The translations under genes were made by a program, and so were the position numbers. This document shows, piece by piece, positions 43,204 to 54,545 of a stretch of 64,000 bases of DNA. This DNA is from Curvibacter sp. AEP1-3. Its GTDB lineage: Bacteria > Pseudomonadota > Gammaproteobacteria > Burkholderiales > Burkholderiaceae_C. Position 1 is the first letter of the stretch; each line of letters begins with the position of its first letter. The notes under the pieces were generated by a model. It did not search any database. It had not been told where the DNA came from and worked only from the letters and a program-made list of their open reading frames with translations. The stretch lies in contig NZ_CP015698.1 in the NCBI RefSeq assembly GCF_002163715.1, forward strand, positions 3,388,201 through 3,452,200. Reading direction: 5' to 3'.

Positions 43204-43845
43204 TCAGATTTGTCCGGTGTCGCTTTGTGGCACCCCGGCAGGAAAATGCCATCCGGAAATTTCTGGCCAAAGCTTCAGTTCGGGCCATTGAAATCCTGGT
43301 CCCGGGTCGGTTTTACGACCCGGGGCAATGTGTTCATGTCCGGCTAGGTATTGAATCTGGTAGTTTTGTGCAATCGCCCCACACAAGCGGTGAAGGCTTT
43401 CATACTGAGGCGGAGTGAACCTGTCCTCCTCGGTTCCTTCCAGCTCAATACCGATGGAGTCATCGTTGCAGTTGTCGCGATCCCGGTAGTAGGACTTGCC
43501 CGCATGCCACGCGCGTTCGTTACAACTGACAAACTGCAAAACTACCCCGGATCTCCGTATGAAGAAGTGGCTCGAAACCTCCATGCCCCGTATGGTTTGG
43601 AAGTAAGGGTGAGCATCCCAGTCCAAAGTGTTGGTGAAAAGTTGCTGTACCTCGGGGCCGCCATACACACCCGGCGGTAGAGATATGGAGTGGATAACCA
43701 CCAGGTCGACAACTGCGCTAGCGGGTCTGGGGCCGAAGTTGGGAGAGGGTATTTGCTGTGCTTCGGACCACCATCCGGCGTCCCAACCGGATGCATTAGG
43801 CAGTGCGGGGTCAGGGTGTCTTGTCACGGTCTTCCCCGGGTACAT
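43204..43845 (-). CDS. ampD: 1,6-anhydro-N-acetylmuramyl-L-alanine amidase AmpD
   Basis: Cytoplasmic zinc amidase that splits anhydro-MurNAc-peptides during wall recycling and thereby limits AmpR-type beta-lactamase induction. The 213-residue protein has VVIHSISLPPGVYGG with the zinc His, SSHFFIRRSGVVLQFVSCNERAWHAGKS with the second His, and HEHIAPGRKTDPGPGFQW with the third His and Asp. The start is uncertain: ATG at 43845 overlaps the pilR end by 35 bases, while GTG at 43827 has a GGGGA site and less overlap. Mpl in this window performs the later recycling step. Confidence 0.93.
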   Translation of the reverse strand: MYPGKTVTRHPDPALPNASGWDAGWWSEAQQIPSPNFGPRPASAVVDLVVIHSISLPPGVYGGPEVQQLFTNTLDWDAHPYFQTIRGMEVSSHFFIRRSGVVLQFVSCNERAWHAGKSYYRDRDNCNDDSIGIELEGTEEDRFTPPQYESLHRLCGAIAQNYQIQYLAGHEHIAPGRKTDPGPGFQWPELKLWPEISGWHFPAGVPQSDTGQI

Positions 43846-45322
43846 CGATGCGCAAGCGCTCCATGCGATAACGTATTTGGCGCAGGCTGATTCCCAAGCG
43901 CTGGGCCGCAGCAGTGCGGTTGAAACGTGTTTCTGTCAGTACGCGAACCAGAATGTCGCGCTCTTGGGCGTCCAGATGGCTTTGCAGGTCGTTGGGTATG
44001 GCCAGTGGTGCAGGCGCTGTTGCCAGTTCATTCATGACATCTGTTTGCGCCTGGATGTCTGCGATCGCTGAATTTGCTACGGCCGGTTCTTGTGTGGGCA
44101 AAAGTACTGCAGGTGTGGAGTCCGCGTAGGTGGCATCCATTTCCAGGGCGAAGCCATCCGATAGAGCCATGGCTCTGTGCAACAGGTTCTCCAGTTCCCT
44201 GACATTGCCTTTAAGTGGATGCAGCTTCAGTTGCTCCAGCATGGAGGCAGAAATCGCCGGTACAGGGCTACCGGTTTCAGCGCATATACGTTGGAGGATC
44301 GCCCTGCACAAAGCCTCCAGGTCGTCTTTGCGCTCGCGCAAAGGTGGAAGGTGGATATCGATGACATTCAGTCGGTAATAGAGGTCTTGACGGAACGTGT
44401 TGGCCGCGACTTCTGCCGCCAGGTCTTTGTGTGTGGCACTGACCAACCGCACATCGACAGCTTCCTCCGCATTGCTTCCCAAGGGGCGGATTTTTCTCTC
44501 TTGAATGGCACGCAGAAGTTTCGCTTGCATGGCTAGAGGGAGATCGCCGATTTCGTCCAGAAACAAAGTCCCCCCGTGCGCCGCTTGGAAGAAGCCGGTT
44601 CTGTCTTGCGTCGCACCGGTGTAGGCGCCCTTTTTGGCGCCAAAGAACTCCGCTTCCAACAAGGCTTCGGGGATCGCACTGCAGTTCACAGCAACCCACG
44701 GCCCTTGAGCCCGGTGGCTATTCGCGTGCAGAGCTCTGGCCGCTAACTCTTTACCCGTACCGGACTCGCCCCGAATCAGCACGGGAGCCATACTGCGTGC
44801 CACCTTGGCAATGCGTTCCTTGACCGCGAGCATGGCTACAGAGGAACCCGCCATCAACTCCAATGCGGATGCAGCGGTCGAGCTGGCTGCCACACTCGCG
44901 ACTGCTTTAGCGCTTGTAGTCGCTGCGTCTAATCCACGGCTGTCGCTAAGCGCCGATGCGACTGCAGTCCGGAACTGCTTCAAATCGACTGGCTTTGTCA
45001 GGTAGTCAAAGGCGCCAGCTTTCAAGGACTCGACGGCATTTTCGGCTGATCCGTAGGCCGTAATCACCATGCAGCGCTCGCCCCGGAATTGAAGACGCAG
45101 GTTCTTCAGAATATCAATACCCATGCCGTCAGGTAGACGCATGTCAGTAATGACCAGGTCATAGGTCTGACGCGCCAAGGCTTCCAGCGCTTCCTGCACG
45201 GATGCGGCGGTGTCGACTTGATGGCCTTCCCGTAGAAGGGTCAGTTCATAGAGCGTGCGCAGATCCGGTTCGTCGTCAATCACCAGGATCTTTGAGGCGC
45301 TCAATACAGGGAGGCTTGCCAT
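43811..45322 (-). CDS. pilR: Sigma-54-dependent response regulator, PilR-like
   Basis: NtrC-family activator, probably of type IV pilus genes. Domains: receiver (residues 10-125) with phospho-acceptor Asp60 in LVITDMRLPDG; AAA+ domain with Walker A GESGTGKE, the sigma-54 loop GAYTGA (Tyr variant of GAFTGA) and LFLDEIGDLP; and a C-terminal Fis-type helix-turn-helix (RFNRTAAAQRLGISLRQIRYRMERL). Length is 503 residues. The start overlaps the end of the pilS-like gene, so the two are translationally coupled. PilA and other pilus genes are not in the window. Confidence 0.92.
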   Translation of the reverse strand: MASLPVLSASKILVIDDEPDLRTLYELTLLREGHQVDTAASVQEALEALARQTYDLVITDMRLPDGMGIDILKNLRLQFRGERCMVITAYGSAENAVESLKAGAFDYLTKPVDLKQFRTAVASALSDSRGLDAATTSAKAVASVAASSTAASALELMAGSSVAMLAVKERIAKVARSMAPVLIRGESGTGKELAARALHANSHRAQGPWVAVNCSAIPEALLEAEFFGAKKGAYTGATQDRTGFFQAAHGGTLFLDEIGDLPLAMQAKLLRAIQERKIRPLGSNAEEAVDVRLVSATHKDLAAEVAANTFRQDLYYRLNVIDIHLPPLRERKDDLEALCRAILQRICAETGSPVPAISASMLEQLKLHPLKGNVRELENLLHRAMALSDGFALEMDATYADSTPAVLLPTQEPAVANSAIADIQAQTDVMNELATAPAPLAIPNDLQSHLDAQERDILVRVLTETRFNRTAAAQRLGISLRQIRYRMERLRIDVPGEDRDKTP

Positions 45323-47040
45323 GGTGTGTTGTGGTCGCTTTCAGCGCTTATGGAAGATGTCAATCTTGTCAGGGTCAGCATGAATTCGTTGCCCTCATGC
45401 AGTTGGCTGTCACGTATCCGGGTATTGCGTTGGTAGGTCAGTGTCGCGCTGTGTCGCTCGCACAGCTCGCGGGAAATATACAAGCCGAGGCCGCTGGAGC
45501 GGCTCTCCGACGAGAAGAAGGGTTCAAAAAGATGCCGTTCCACTGTCTGGTCCATGCGTGCACCATCACTCCAGACGGACACCAATGCGACCTCATCGCC
45601 ATAGGCCACTGTGATTTGAATGGCCTCCAAGTGGCGACTGGCATAGCGGTGCGCGTTGTCCAGCAAATTGACCATGACTTGCCGCAAATGATCATGGTCA
45701 AACCGGACAGAATGCACTGCTGGATCAATCTCAAATCCGATCATTCCGGCCTGACCATGTTGTTGGGCCCAGTCTCGCGCGATTTTGTACACCGCTTCAC
45801 TCAGGCCGTGCAGGGCATCGCGCTCACTAAAGTTGGCGCCGCGTGCCCGGGCGACGTTCAGGATGTCATCCACGATTTTTTCAAGTCTTTTTGCGTTCTG
45901 CCCGACCATATTCGTCAAGCGAAGCTGCTTCGGGTCACTCAAATCCTCTGCGAGTAATGCGTTGGCCTGCGCAATCGCCGCCAAAGGATTGCGGATTTCA
46001 TGGGCTACCGCGGTGGACATGCGACCCATACTGGCCAATTTTTCGGTGCGTAATCGGGCCTCCGCTTGGCGTTGGTCTTGCAGGAACAAGACGCACAGGC
46101 TGTCTTCCCCGATACCTTGGGGCGCTGCCAGCCGGGTTCGGGCCAGAACCTTTAATGGCGCGCTTCCTTCATGCTGCAGTGAGACTTCCGCTTCTTGCTG
46201 TTGGCCACTGCCCAGGCTGAGCCTGCTTAAATGCAGGAGAGGCCTCCACGCGGGGTCAGCCTTGAGATCGAACACTGCTGCGCGCAGGCGGTCCTCATCG
46301 CCCAGCAACGCGCGTGCTGCGGGGTTGGCTGCACGTACGATGCCGCCCTGGTCCACGATCATCACGCCCTCCGGCAGGGCTTCGATCACCAGTTCATTCA
46401 CCTCCCGCTGAATGGTGGCCGCCAACTGGCTTTGCCGTGCCCGCTTGCCTTCATTGGCCAGTCGTGTTGCCAATTGGTTCGCCAGAAAGGCAATCGCGAA
46501 ATAACCTACGCCACTGAGTCCGGCTTGGACGAACGAGGCCGGATTGTCTTGATCGCTGCGAATCTGGGTCCAGACTGCACCACCCAAAAGCAACATGGTC
46601 ACGCCGGCAGCGGTCCCCAATGCCAAACGCAGGGACCCCAAAACTGAAGCCAGCAGCACCGGTAAGGCAAACAAAGGGGTGTAGTTGAGACTGTTCCCGT
46701 GAAGCCATTGCAATGCCGAGAACGCCAGCACGTCAATGCCAATTAGCACGCCCCAAGAGCGCGTAAACGCCGCGCCCAAGGGGCGGGGGCGCAAATGAAG
46801 TCGGGTAGCTAGCGTGCCCAAAAAATAGGCAATGCACACTGCCAGCAAGGTTTTGCTATGGGCCGGGCCGGTCGCATAAAGCGTGATTTGAAGTAGTACC
46901 AGCACTACGCCCAAGACCAGGCGTGCGGTCATGAATGCCTGCCACAGCCGTTTGAAGTCCCCCTGGTCTTCTGCGGGCCCGGGAACGGCTTCCAGCGCCG
47001 ATGCACCGAACCAAGAGTGCTCCCCTTGCTCCTGCTGCAT
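45301..47040 (-). CDS. pilS: Sensor histidine kinase, PilS-like
   Basis: Membrane kinase partner of the downstream regulator. The 579 residues contain about six N-terminal membrane helices (residues 35-200), a PAS domain (LPEGVMIVDQGGIVRAANPAARALLG), an H-box AVAHEIRNPLAAIAQ with the phospho-His, an N-box HLRQVMVNLLDNAHRYA, and a G-box SSGLGLYISRELCE. This topology matches PilS, which senses pilin levels in the membrane. It starts one base into the stop of the small zinc-motif gene upstream. Confidence 0.9.
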   Translation of the reverse strand: MQQEQGEHSWFGASALEAVPGPAEDQGDFKRLWQAFMTARLVLGVVLVLLQITLYATGPAHSKTLLAVCIAYFLGTLATRLHLRPRPLGAAFTRSWGVLIGIDVLAFSALQWLHGNSLNYTPLFALPVLLASVLGSLRLALGTAAGVTMLLLGGAVWTQIRSDQDNPASFVQAGLSGVGYFAIAFLANQLATRLANEGKRARQSQLAATIQREVNELVIEALPEGVMIVDQGGIVRAANPAARALLGDEDRLRAAVFDLKADPAWRPLLHLSRLSLGSGQQQEAEVSLQHEGSAPLKVLARTRLAAPQGIGEDSLCVLFLQDQRQAEARLRTEKLASMGRMSTAVAHEIRNPLAAIAQANALLAEDLSDPKQLRLTNMVGQNAKRLEKIVDDILNVARARGANFSERDALHGLSEAVYKIARDWAQQHGQAGMIGFEIDPAVHSVRFDHDHLRQVMVNLLDNAHRYASRHLEAIQITVAYGDEVALVSVWSDGARMDQTVERHLFEPFFSSESRSSGLGLYISRELCERHSATLTYQRNTRIRDSQLHEGNEFMLTLTRLTSSISAESDHNTPWQASLY

Positions 47041-50517: not shown

Positions 50518-50643
50518 GCGGATTATTCCTTCGCGTCCTTAGCGGTTTTGTTGCCCGGTTAGCTGGATATGATCTTGCTGCTGAGCCGGGTAAACCTGCC
50601 GAACAGGTTCCAGAAACAGACAGTAAAAATGAGGGAGAAGATG

Positions 50644-51831
50644 ATGGATGAGTTGGTATATCCGCGAGAACGTGTGCTTGGGAAGATCACCTTGGTGCTT
50701 GGCATCGTTGCTTGGCTGCTTATTCTTGTGGGCACGTTTGGCTTGGCCTTGATTTATGTGCTTTTGGGGTTTATTGCTTATGTATTTGCACAGTCTGCGT
50801 GGGTGGCTGCAGTACGCGGCACTGCCGTGCAAATCACTGAAGAGCAATTTCCGGATCTACATGCTAGATTCAAAGATTGCTGCGAAAAGCTGCATATAGA
50901 TGCAGTGCCTGAGGCTTACTTGTTGAATGGGAACGGTATTTTCAATGCCTTCGCCACTCGGTTCTTCGGACGCAATTTCGTAATTCTTTATTCCGATGTT
51001 GTAGATACTTTTGAAGTTGAGCCAGACAGCATCAACTTCTATATCGGACATGAGCTAGGGCACATAAGGCTAAAGCATCTGACGGGTCAACTTTGGCGTC
51101 TGCCTATGATGTGGCTTCCTTTACTGGGCGCTGCCTATTCACGCGCTAAAGAGTACTCGTGCGACCTCCATGGTCGAGCCTGTTGTGAAAGCGCTGAGAC
51201 AGCTGCCAGGGCGTTGATTGTCTTGGGTGCAGGTCCTATTCGGGTCAAGACGACCGATATCAATGCGTACACGCAGCAGGTCGTCAATGCTGCTGGGTTT
51301 TGGTCTTCATTTCATGAAATCGTCAATGGGTATCCATGGCTGACGAAGCGTGTCTGGCGCATAAAGACACCGGATCGGACATTGCCTAAACGCAATCCGT
51401 TTGCTTACTTCTTGGGGCTCTTCGTCCCGTATGGCGGGGCAGCTGGTGGTGGTTCGGGATTTCTCATTTTGGTGGCCATTCTTGGGGTCATGGCCGCAGT
51501 GGCTCTACCGGCATATCAGGAATACACGAACAAAGCAGTCGTGAGTCAGGCTTGGATTCAGTCTGCTCCAACGCGAAATCAGTTGGCAGCCTTTTATGGG
51601 CAACACCAGAAAGTTCCTACCTTTCGCGAAGCGGGCCTGGAAGAAACCTTGCCAGATGGAAGGCGCATGGGTATCAATTCCGAAAGCATGATCGTCGACG
51701 TGCCGACAAAAGCAGGGACCCTTTTGTTGGTTCCCAAAGTCGCACCAGATGAAGCAAACGGCATTGCATGGACTTGTGAGGCTGGTGAAGGGATGAAACC
51801 CGCGGCACTCCCCTTATCCTGCTCGAACTAA
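50644..51831 (+). CDS. M48-family metalloprotease fused to a type IV pilin-like domain
   Basis: A 395-residue protein. Two N-terminal membrane helices (residues 14-55) are followed by an M48 peptidase domain with HELGH at residues 136-140 and a probable third ligand Glu170 (KEYSCD). From residue ~271, the sequence GFLILVAILGVMAAVALPAY and EYTNKAVVSQAW closely matches the N-terminal helix of type IV pilins. The end has a pilin-like Cys pair (AWTCEA, Cys378; LPLSC, Cys393). The pilin Glu5 is replaced by Val and the helix is internal, so normal prepilin processing is unlikely. ATG 50644 lies six bases after GGGAG. Codon use looks more AT-rich than its neighbours. Substrate unknown. Confidence 0.85.
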   Translation: MDELVYPRERVLGKITLVLGIVAWLLILVGTFGLALIYVLLGFIAYVFAQSAWVAAVRGTAVQITEEQFPDLHARFKDCCEKLHIDAVPEAYLLNGNGIFNAFATRFFGRNFVILYSDVVDTFEVEPDSINFYIGHELGHIRLKHLTGQLWRLPMMWLPLLGAAYSRAKEYSCDLHGRACCESAETAARALIVLGAGPIRVKTTDINAYTQQVVNAAGFWSSFHEIVNGYPWLTKRVWRIKTPDRTLPKRNPFAYFLGLFVPYGGAAGGGSGFLILVAILGVMAAVALPAYQEYTNKAVVSQAWIQSAPTRNQLAAFYGQHQKVPTFREAGLEETLPDGRRMGINSESMIVDVPTKAGTLLLVPKVAPDEANGIAWTCEAGEGMKPAALPLSCSN

Positions 51832-52070: not shown

Positions 52071-52097
52071 CAACGTTCAATATTGCAGGGAGAAAGC

Positions 52098-52583
52098 ATG
52101 AAGAAGTTTGTTATTGCCGGTTTGTTGCTGGCTGCATCTGGTCTCACTTTGGCTGCTGGCGCACAGGGCTCCGGTCCAAGCCCATACACCGAGTGCGGTA
52201 TCGGTGCATCAATTTTCAAGGATACGGATTGGGCTGCTGCTACTTCAAACGTGACATGGGATCTGGGTACCACCGCTTTGTCTTCCGCATCTTATTCTCC
52301 TGAGATGTGCTCCCCCAAGAAGGTCAAAGCAGCTATGTTGATTCGCGACAACTATGCCCAGATTTCTGAAGAAATCGCTCGCGGTCAAGGCGATCATTTG
52401 AGCGCTGCACTTGAAGTGTTTGGCTGCAGTGCAGTAGCTCAGCCCGTAGCGGCCACCCAAGTGCGCGGTGAGTTTGGGCGCATGGTATCGACCTCTTCTT
52501 ACGGCGGTCAGAGCCAAATCCAGAAGGCTGGCCAAATGTATCAAGTCATCCAGTCAGCTGCCCAAGGCCGTTGCGGCGCTTGA
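52098..52583 (+). CDS. DUF3015-family secreted protein
   Basis: A 161-residue exported protein with a signal peptide (MKKFVIAGLLLAASGLTLAAGA). It has the conserved YTECGIGASIF, TWDLGTTALSSASYSPEMC and NYAQISEEIARGQGDHLSALEVFGC-type segments of the DUF3015 family, with Cys residues that may form periplasmic disulfides. AGGGAGAAAGC precedes the ATG. A DUF4105 gene follows on the same strand; I believe the two families are often neighbours. Function unknown. Confidence 0.88.
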   Translation: MKKFVIAGLLLAASGLTLAAGAQGSGPSPYTECGIGASIFKDTDWAAATSNVTWDLGTTALSSASYSPEMCSPKKVKAAMLIRDNYAQISEEIARGQGDHLSAALEVFGCSAVAQPVAATQVRGEFGRMVSTSSYGGQSQIQKAGQMYQVIQSAAQGRCGA

Positions 52584-52605
52584 TGCCTTTGCGATCTCTT
52601 GAAAT

Positions 52606-52627
52606 AGCCCCTTCGGGGGCTTTTTTT
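52606..52627 (+). terminator. Terminator after the DUF3015 gene
   Basis: AGCCCC-TTCG-GGGGCT followed by seven T. A strong intrinsic terminator lying just before the DUF4105 gene start. Confidence 0.9.
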
Positions 52628-52636
52628 CGTCTGCAG

Positions 52637-54545
52637 ATGCCGGCTTTGTTGCTGGTGTTTTTGGTTTTGCTGGGGTGTCCTCTGGCCTCCCGATCGGCAT
52701 TGGAGGTCCCTAGTGCGACTTCTGGCTATGTGGAGTTATCCCGCGACGCAACGTGGTTGCGCTTGCTGCATTACCAAGGGGGAGGCATCGGCAACACCCG
52801 GAGTGCGATTCATAGCCCCGAGTTTTTCTTGGATCCCCAAGGTAGCACAGACGCGGCGGCAGAGTTGTCCGCGACAGTTCGTGCATTGCATCAGCCTGTC
52901 GTCGTGGGGGGGGGAGGATGATCACGCTGCATGTCGCTTTCCGGCTCGCAGGCAGTGGCTGGAGACGCGAATATCCGGGCTGCGGAATGAGCTCCAAAGC
53001 GTTCTCAAGGATTTGAGCTGCCCGGCCTTCCTTGAATGGGGCGATCCTCGGGACATTGATTCCATCAGCCTGATGTTTGCCAATGGCTATTTGGGCAATC
53101 CGGCTTCCTATTACGGCCACTTATTCTTGAAGTTCAACTCCAAGAAGAGCGGGCAGTCGTATCTGCTCGACAAGACTGAAAATTTCGGGGCACTTGATGT
53201 GAGAGGTGACAACCCGGTCCAGTACATCGTGAAAGCGCTGGTCGGTGGTTACGACGGCGGATTTAGCCAAATCGATTTTTTCTATCACGACGCGACTTAT
53301 ACGGAGAATGAGTTTCGTGACTTGTGGGAGTACCGTCTCGATCTAGCGCCAGAGGAGGTGCGCTTCCTCTCCGCCCACGCCTGGGAGATCCATCGCAAGC
53401 GTTACACCTATTTTTTCTTTCATGACAACTGCGCATTCCGGGTCGCGGAAGTGCTGGAGCTTTTGAAGGATGTGAAGGCCGTGCCGACGGCCGCGCCATG
53501 GGTTATTCCGCAAGAGGTGGTCAAGGTGGTTGCGAATCAGTCCAGGGACGGCAAGCCCTTCGTAAAGGAGCGAAGACTCCATCCCTCCCGGCAGTCACGT
53601 CTGTATCAAGGTTTCAATGCCCTCAATGGCGAGCAGCAGGCGCTCGTGCAATCGATCGCCGTGCAGAGAATCACCCTAAGTGACCCTTCAGTCAAGTTGT
53701 ACCCTGAAGCCGATCAAGCCAAGATGGCGGACACTTTGCTCGACTACTATCAGTTCACCAGTGGTAGCACGGATGCGGGAAGTGAAAAAAAATTGCCGGA
53801 GGCCTATTTCTCGGTGTTGAAGGCCCGCTTTGACTTGCCGCCTGCAGCCACAGCCCCCAAGGGGGCTGTAGCGGATGCAAGGGATGCGCCTGATGTGGGG
53901 CGTTCTCCCGGATGGGTGCAAATCGGGTTGGGGAGTCAAGAAGGGGCTGGTCCGGTTCAGACCCTACGCATTCGCCCTGCCTATTACGATGATTTGGATA
54001 GCGATGCGGCTCAGGCTCCGTGGAGTGGTTTGAGCATGGGGGATCTCACTCTGGAACGGCAGAGCGACAAGGTGCAGGTGAAGAAACTGGACTTCGTGGC
54101 CATCAACAGCAACAGACCTTCCATGACCCGCATGCCTGGTGACGGGGGTACGGGGTGGACAGCCCGATTCGGCCTTGAGAAACAAAGCCTCGCTTGCACA
54201 GATTGCCTAGTCTTTCGCCTTCAGGGCGACTATCGCAAGGTCATGTCGTTGCCGATGCCCAATTCCATTCTGGCACTTGGCTTGGGCGGCGGCGTGCAGT
54301 CCAACCGAAACAACGAAGGTATGGCACTTACGTCTGTATTGCTGAAACTTTCCAAGCGGTTTCAGAACGGGAGTCATGTCAATTTGAGCCAAGAAACCAA
54401 GGTGTCGCTTGACCGTTCCGAGAGCACTCGCCATATCAGCACTTTGGAATGGCGGACCCCTATTTCTCGCGCATTGGATTGGCGACTTTTGTGGGAGAGT
54501 GACGGCGTGGCGCGAACCACCTTCGGTTTTGGTACCTATTGGTAA
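52637..54545 (+). pseudogene. DUF4105-family outer-envelope protein, interrupted by a frameshift at a G9 tract
   Basis: Two frames together encode one DUF4105 protein. The first (from MPALLLVFLVLLGCPLASRS, a signal peptide, through LLHYQGGGIGNTRSAIHSPEFFLD) stops at 52921. The second carries the rest (CRFPARRQWLETRI, ISLMFANGYLGNPASYYGHLFLKF, FFYHDATYTENEF, YTYFFFHDNCAFRVAEVLEL) to 54545. The junction is a run of nine G at 52906-52914; with eight G the frames join as VVVGGEDDHAACRFPAR. It may be a true frameshift, a phase-variable switch, or a sequencing error. The intact product would be about 635 residues, probably envelope-located. Function unknown. Confidence 0.85.

Follow-up and report, generated by a model that had tools for sequence, protein, structure and literature searches.

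Why would a membrane protease end in a type IV pilin, and what could a pilin in that position still do? The question is raised by the gene at 50644..51831 of a 64,000-nucleotide stretch of the Curvibacter sp. AEP1-3 genome (contig NZ_CP015698.1, positions 3,388,201 to 3,452,200; this whole stretch is called the window), whose product a sequence-only reading had described as an M48 metalloprotease fused to a complete type IV pilin-like domain. The fusion is conserved in related bacteria and is not an artefact. Its pilin is headless, and positions 14-24 of the pilin helix are selectively conserved while the head is lost. The gene and its parts are as follows:

50644..51831, plus strand: M48 protease-headless pilin fusion gene, 395 residues from the ATG at 50644, stop codon ending at 51831 (open reading frame (ORF) list, translation)
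50631..50640, plus strand: GAGGGAGAAG, a ribosome-binding-like stretch just 5' of an ATG at 50641 (read from the sequence)
50668..50817, plus strand: N-terminal membrane hairpin, residues 9-58 (AlphaFold2 model, charge analysis)
50842..51378, plus strand: M48 catalytic domain, residues about 67-245 (Pfam, structure comparison)
51049..51063, plus strand: HELGH zinc motif, residues 136-140 (translation, alignment)
51151..51165, plus strand: EYSCD (ExxxD, with E170 as presumed third zinc ligand), residues 170-174 (translation, alignment)
51445..51828, plus strand: headless type IV pilin domain, residues 268-395 (phmmer, structure comparison, hhalign)
51445..51459, plus strand: Gly-rich linker replacing pilin residues 1-5, residues 268-272 (register count on relatives)
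51460..51516, plus strand: pilin helix positions 6-24, the third membrane segment, residues 273-291, with 14-24 strongly conserved (register, charge, entropy)
51604..51828, plus strand: pilin loop, sheet and Cys-loop part, residues 321-395 (AlphaFold2 model, structure comparison)
51775..51822, plus strand: C-terminal Cys pair C378/C393 (alignment, regular expressions)

The ORF runs from ATG to stop and is real, as first described. A second, adjoining ATG at 50641 is an alternative start; a longer ORF of 420 residues from 50569 is less likely, because the aligned relatives begin at about the same place as the version of 395 residues. The assignment to M48 stands: PF01435 is matched with 55.3 bits (E 9.4e-15) against a curated cut-off of 20.3, and HELGH and EYSCD are both present. 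By regular expressions, all 91 locus rows have an HExxH plus an ExxxD-type motif, and with these catalytic motifs retained the protein is probably an active protease. Within the predicted cytoplasmic protease domain the cysteines C79, C80, C173, C180 and C181 are conserved, C80 and C180 invariantly and the others at 90% or more (81 rows).

The C-terminal part matches gonococcal PilA/PilE in the PDB over residues 273-333 (phmmer, E 4.7e-8). A profile of 37 fusion pilins aligns with one of 23 ordinary pilins at a probability of 99.9 over 123 columns, and the match begins with pilin residue 6 (hhalign). The AlphaFold2 model has a pilin fold by VIA-align 2 comparison, as the sequence-only reading had predicted; Foldseek E-values are weak, with 0.013 and 0.085 as the best. 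PF00114 is not matched in Pfam by the window protein and is matched by some relatives. The C-terminal Cys pair seen earlier corresponds to C378/C393, and a terminal WxC...C is found in all 204 full rows (regular expressions). Of the claim of a complete domain, the fold from residue 6 onwards holds; what the protein lacks is the leader and residues 1-5.

A protein search yields 2,185 relatives among 8,000 scored candidates. The 120 relatives listed, one of them the window's own protein, span 99-100% of the query, and a whole pilin is present in all 121 sequences of that listing plus the query. A genome scan with protease-only patterns found 274 relatives. The best 80 loci, a choice that favours full-length copies, belong to Desulfoluna, to Komagataeibacter and to Beta- and Gammaproteobacteria. 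With the same domain order in these named genomes and over nearly the full query length, the suspicion of an assembly or gene-fusion artefact falls away. Database names of some relatives already combine a protease with a PilE, PilA or PulG name. The pilin region alone as query returns seven proteins, all with an M48 domain, in a protein search that is unable to reveal other fusions; those came from genome searches. In even samples, hits occur in 8 of 397 genomes of the host phylum (five with whole pilin, one with helix only, two without pilin) and in 10 of 250 of the host order (four whole, five with the helix and without the usual globular part, one without pilin). No paper on an M48-pilin fusion was found in the open-licence literature, which omits most subscription journals.

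With the pilin register counted backwards from Pro22, residues 1-5, FTLIE in ordinary pilins, are replaced by a Gly/Ala-rich linker in the fusion proteins, with Gly taking the place of Glu5 in the window protein. None of 63 loci has Glu5 in a narrow count (15 of the 80 loci without the anchor motif and two without a recognised ORF being left out), and none of 212 rows in a wider one, 190 registered by script and 22 by eye, where any row with Glu5 would land among the latter; some near-duplicates and two rows of the window's own protein are included. The fusion gene is not among the 15 places of its genome matching the N_methyl leader and prepilin peptidase site (PF07963). Because residues 1-5 are missing, neither processing by prepilin peptidase nor pilin-like polymerisation is expected. 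A pilin without Glu5 and a free N terminus is not expected to assemble into filaments, and the earlier view of an internal helix lacking Glu5, and hence of no ordinary assembly, agrees with these counts.

Positions 14-24 have a mean entropy of 0.91 bits over 87 diverse rows, compared with 0.75 for the active-site stretch, 1.58 and 1.25 for the first and second transmembrane helices (TM1, TM2), 1.91 for pilin positions 6-13 and 2.2-2.4 for the remaining pilin. In 81 rows, TM2 is followed by a mean of 1.6 lysines plus arginines versus 0.2 aspartates plus glutamates, the third membrane helix (TM3) is preceded by 5.6 versus 1.1, and the last 75 residues are net negative (6.5 versus 10.0). Together with the natural orientation of pilins, these charges suggest a cytoplasmic protease and a pilin part that is usually periplasmic. 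The internal helix would then be the third membrane segment, behind the N-terminal hairpin, much as the sequence-only reading had supposed when it offered the helix as a third anchor.

In a tree of 130 catalytic domains, a branch with support 100/99 separates the 88 helix-bearing rows from rows without pilin or with a GspG-like tail; the deep tree is rough, as L106 forms a very long branch, the root is placed at the midpoint and the bootstrap is unsettled. Instead of the pilin helix, L105 has an unrelated helix at the place of the third membrane segment, and L106 has none. Six rows (L078, L079, L104, L108, L110 and L111) possess the helix and no globular tail detectable in six frames, L081 has a frame break, and L112 has no tail match and a different C-terminal domain; the hidden Markov model (HMM) used is weak for divergent tails, as L031 and L109, both with tails, score only E 0.63 and 0.0082. 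The helix-only label requires six changes on the tree, and the globular part was probably lost more than once. The fusion at L031:3744-5216 (plus strand) carries an extra Cys-containing tail. The pilin domain of L031 is 46% identical to a pilin of its own genome, compared with 40, 39 and 36% in three other genomes; re-capture of a resident pilin is possible in this one case, which is not used as evidence.

The sister M48 proteases (P0203-P0241, relatives of L105) in many cases have a GspG-like C-terminal domain, with a GspG-like signature in 23 among the 120 listed L105 relatives. The tail profile of 30 sister proteins (A4) reaches a hhalign probability of 97.1 against 21 GspG over 77 columns and of 1.1 against 23 pilins, in a pairwise comparison and not a database search, and 18 of the 30 match Pfam T2SSG within a limit of E 1 (best 8.7e-5); on these two results the GspG-like tail is based. 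A direct HMM search of the tails against 56 pilin-like sequences gives E 0.011 at best, and a profile of whole sister proteins matches three GspG/EpsG chains only at E 0.66-2. M56 is weakly matched in 20 of the 30 rows (best 0.0024). The third membrane helix of the sister proteins does not match the headless-pilin profile. Pilin-family domains thus stand at the same place of this M48 protease in two forms, which may stem from two gains or from a replacement.

Headless pilins are not confined to proteases. In 84 genomes of the host class, in which selected long frames were read rather than every match, six proteins (L143-L148, open frames of 716-831 residues) have a headless pilin at the end. 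A lipoprotein-like Cys after a signal-like start is seen by eye in five of them, L148 being the one without, and in the two that were scanned Pilin is the only Pfam family over its cut-off, the large part of these proteins matching no family over cut-off. At L156:545-1297 (plus strand), one GYF_2 domain is followed by a headless pilin. For XAC3805 of Xanthomonas, a DUF4339 pilin-like protein, PMC10333488 and PMC4960238 describe a protein without a prepilin leader or probably no true pilin. Headless pilins could thus form a recurrent plug-in module, found on M48 proteases (PilA and GspG types), GYF_2 proteins and a lipoprotein-like family, through which accessory proteins would dock on pilins or type IV filament machines, the M48 form being a dedicated protease or sensor of the pilin pool; we regard this wider scheme as possible but lean against it.

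In the window, the surroundings of the gene include:

45301-47040, minus strand: PilS (Pfam 6TM_PilS, E 2.7e-12)
43811-45322, minus strand: PilR-like ORF (read by eye)
52083-54545, plus strand: a DUF3015 gene, then an Lnb_N gene, downstream of the fusion gene (Pfam)

An EamA gene (Pfam) lies between pilS and the fusion gene, and genes that we take to be ffh and ccsA also stand between pilS/pilR and the fusion gene. The proximity of PilS/PilR, put forward earlier as a functional clue, was rejected: only 5 of the 80 loci, many with short flanks, match the window's PilS, at 24-27% identity, the level of a generic kinase. No conserved operon is seen with a crude gene calling (longest ORF first) that dropped the focal gene in some loci. 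Within about 8 kb, pilus genes are matched at a single locus among the 80, L049:707-4081 of Desulfoluna butyratoxydans, where genes for an ordinary pilin and a PilB-type ATPase stand some 4-7 kb away from the fusion. Elsewhere in the genome of the window, PilQ, N-methyl pilins and T2SSE-type ATPases are encoded. Fifty of the 80 loci were submitted to a PilQ search and 49 genomes searched. PilQ is found in 48 of the 49 at the lax limit of E 1e-20, which other secretins pass as well, and over the curated cut-off in 46, compared with 196 of 250 genomes of the host order (Fisher p 0.009, a rough value as the rows are related and come from several orders). Two of the three fusion genomes below the cut-off have PilT over cut-off and N-methyl pilins. 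In the remaining one, Komagataeibacter nataicola, neither PilQ nor N-methyl pilins are matched and PilT does not exceed its cut-off; of the helix residues, G14, A17 and A18 are lost and P22 is kept.

The reading that we favour, tentatively and at somewhat less than even chances, is that of docking through the helix followed by proteolysis from the cytoplasmic side. An M48-type zinc protease of the inner membrane, its active site facing the cytoplasm, would use the decapitated PilA as a third membrane helix and, usually, a periplasmic domain. Through the helix the protease may dock laterally on pilins resident in the membrane, or on the membrane proteins by which pilins are normally recognised, and the docked enzyme could trim or remove (pre)pilins or a pilin-binding regulator. 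The PilQ link and the conservation of positions 14-24 fit the earlier suggestion of a protease placed at the pilus machinery or sensing pilins. Pilins contact PilS inside the membrane, as cited in PMC6058289, and a truncated pilin can trigger a proteolytic signal in Pseudomonas, according to PMC3684759. Several observations weigh against docking. Of the 384 windows of 11 residues in the protein, 62 are better conserved than positions 14-24, which come only 63rd, and conservation at the end of TM2 is about the same (0.90 bits, 87 rows); the small residues may therefore reflect packing inside the protein. The N-terminal charge is neutral (81 rows). No pilus-gene neighbourhood is conserved in the 80 loci, often with short flanks, and all ten host-order hits are PilQ-positive, but at a base rate of 78%. 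The family is sparse while PilQ is common, and it is therefore no general pilus factor. Sister proteins combine a helix that is not pilin-like with a GspG-like tail, which shifts weight to the periplasmic part. The polarity of the tree is unsettled, with several helix-only rows among the early branches, so that gain of the globular part is possible as well.

A rival explanation is a BlaR1-like sensor protease, in which the periplasmic pilin senses unassembled pilins, the state of the pilus or the redox state of its Cys pair, the third helix relays the signal, and the cytoplasmic protease cuts a cytoplasmic or membrane regulator. This explanation is doubtful: no globular domain is detectable in six rows, conservation is lowest in the outside domain, the window protein has no Pfam M56 match up to E 1, and no regulator gene is conserved nearby in the loci examined. 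The sparse distribution, the lack of a pilus-gene neighbourhood, the presence in Komagataeibacter with neither PilQ nor N-methyl match, and the relatives L105 and L106 would instead suit a pilin helix captured by chance as a plain anchor of an HtpX-type quality-control protease, its origin irrelevant to function. We consider this rather unlikely, as conservation within the helix is far higher at positions 14-24 than at positions 6-13, and GspG-like sister tails and headless pilins on other proteins make chance capture less probable. Very improbable is an unusual minor pilin built into or onto the pilus base, to which the true pilin fold would be suited; the protein has no leader, no free N terminus and, throughout the 212 rows, no Glu5, and a large domain and a membrane hairpin precede the helix.

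Little is known of how cells control their unassembled pilins in the membrane, and a protease that carries a pilin copy not expected to polymerise, and that the fusion may tie to pilus subunits, offers a genetically testable entry point. Two parts of the pilin helix are separated here: the head for processing and assembly is lost, and positions 14-24 are kept under constraint even in rows without a globular domain, pointing to a part in intramembrane recognition. The GspG-like sister tails suggest that the pairing of protease and pilin family is no single accident. Among M48 proteases, ZMPSTE24/Ste24p and BepA are not known to carry a pilin and differ in membrane part (Ste24) or location (BepA), and BlaR1 is a penicillin-binding sensor of another peptidase family, M56. 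The fusion protein is not an orthologue of the M48 membrane metalloprotease HtpX (28 bits at best against the NCBIfam equivalog, cut-off 341), from which it differs by its pilin C-terminus. Unlike the type IVa pilins PilA/PilE, its pilin has no leader, cleavage site or Glu5 and is not N-terminal. The GYF_2 (DUF4339) headless pilins such as XAC3805, to which L156 is tied by architecture and not by alignment, likewise have an internal pilin behind an unrelated domain, but with GYF_2 where the fusion protein has its protease.
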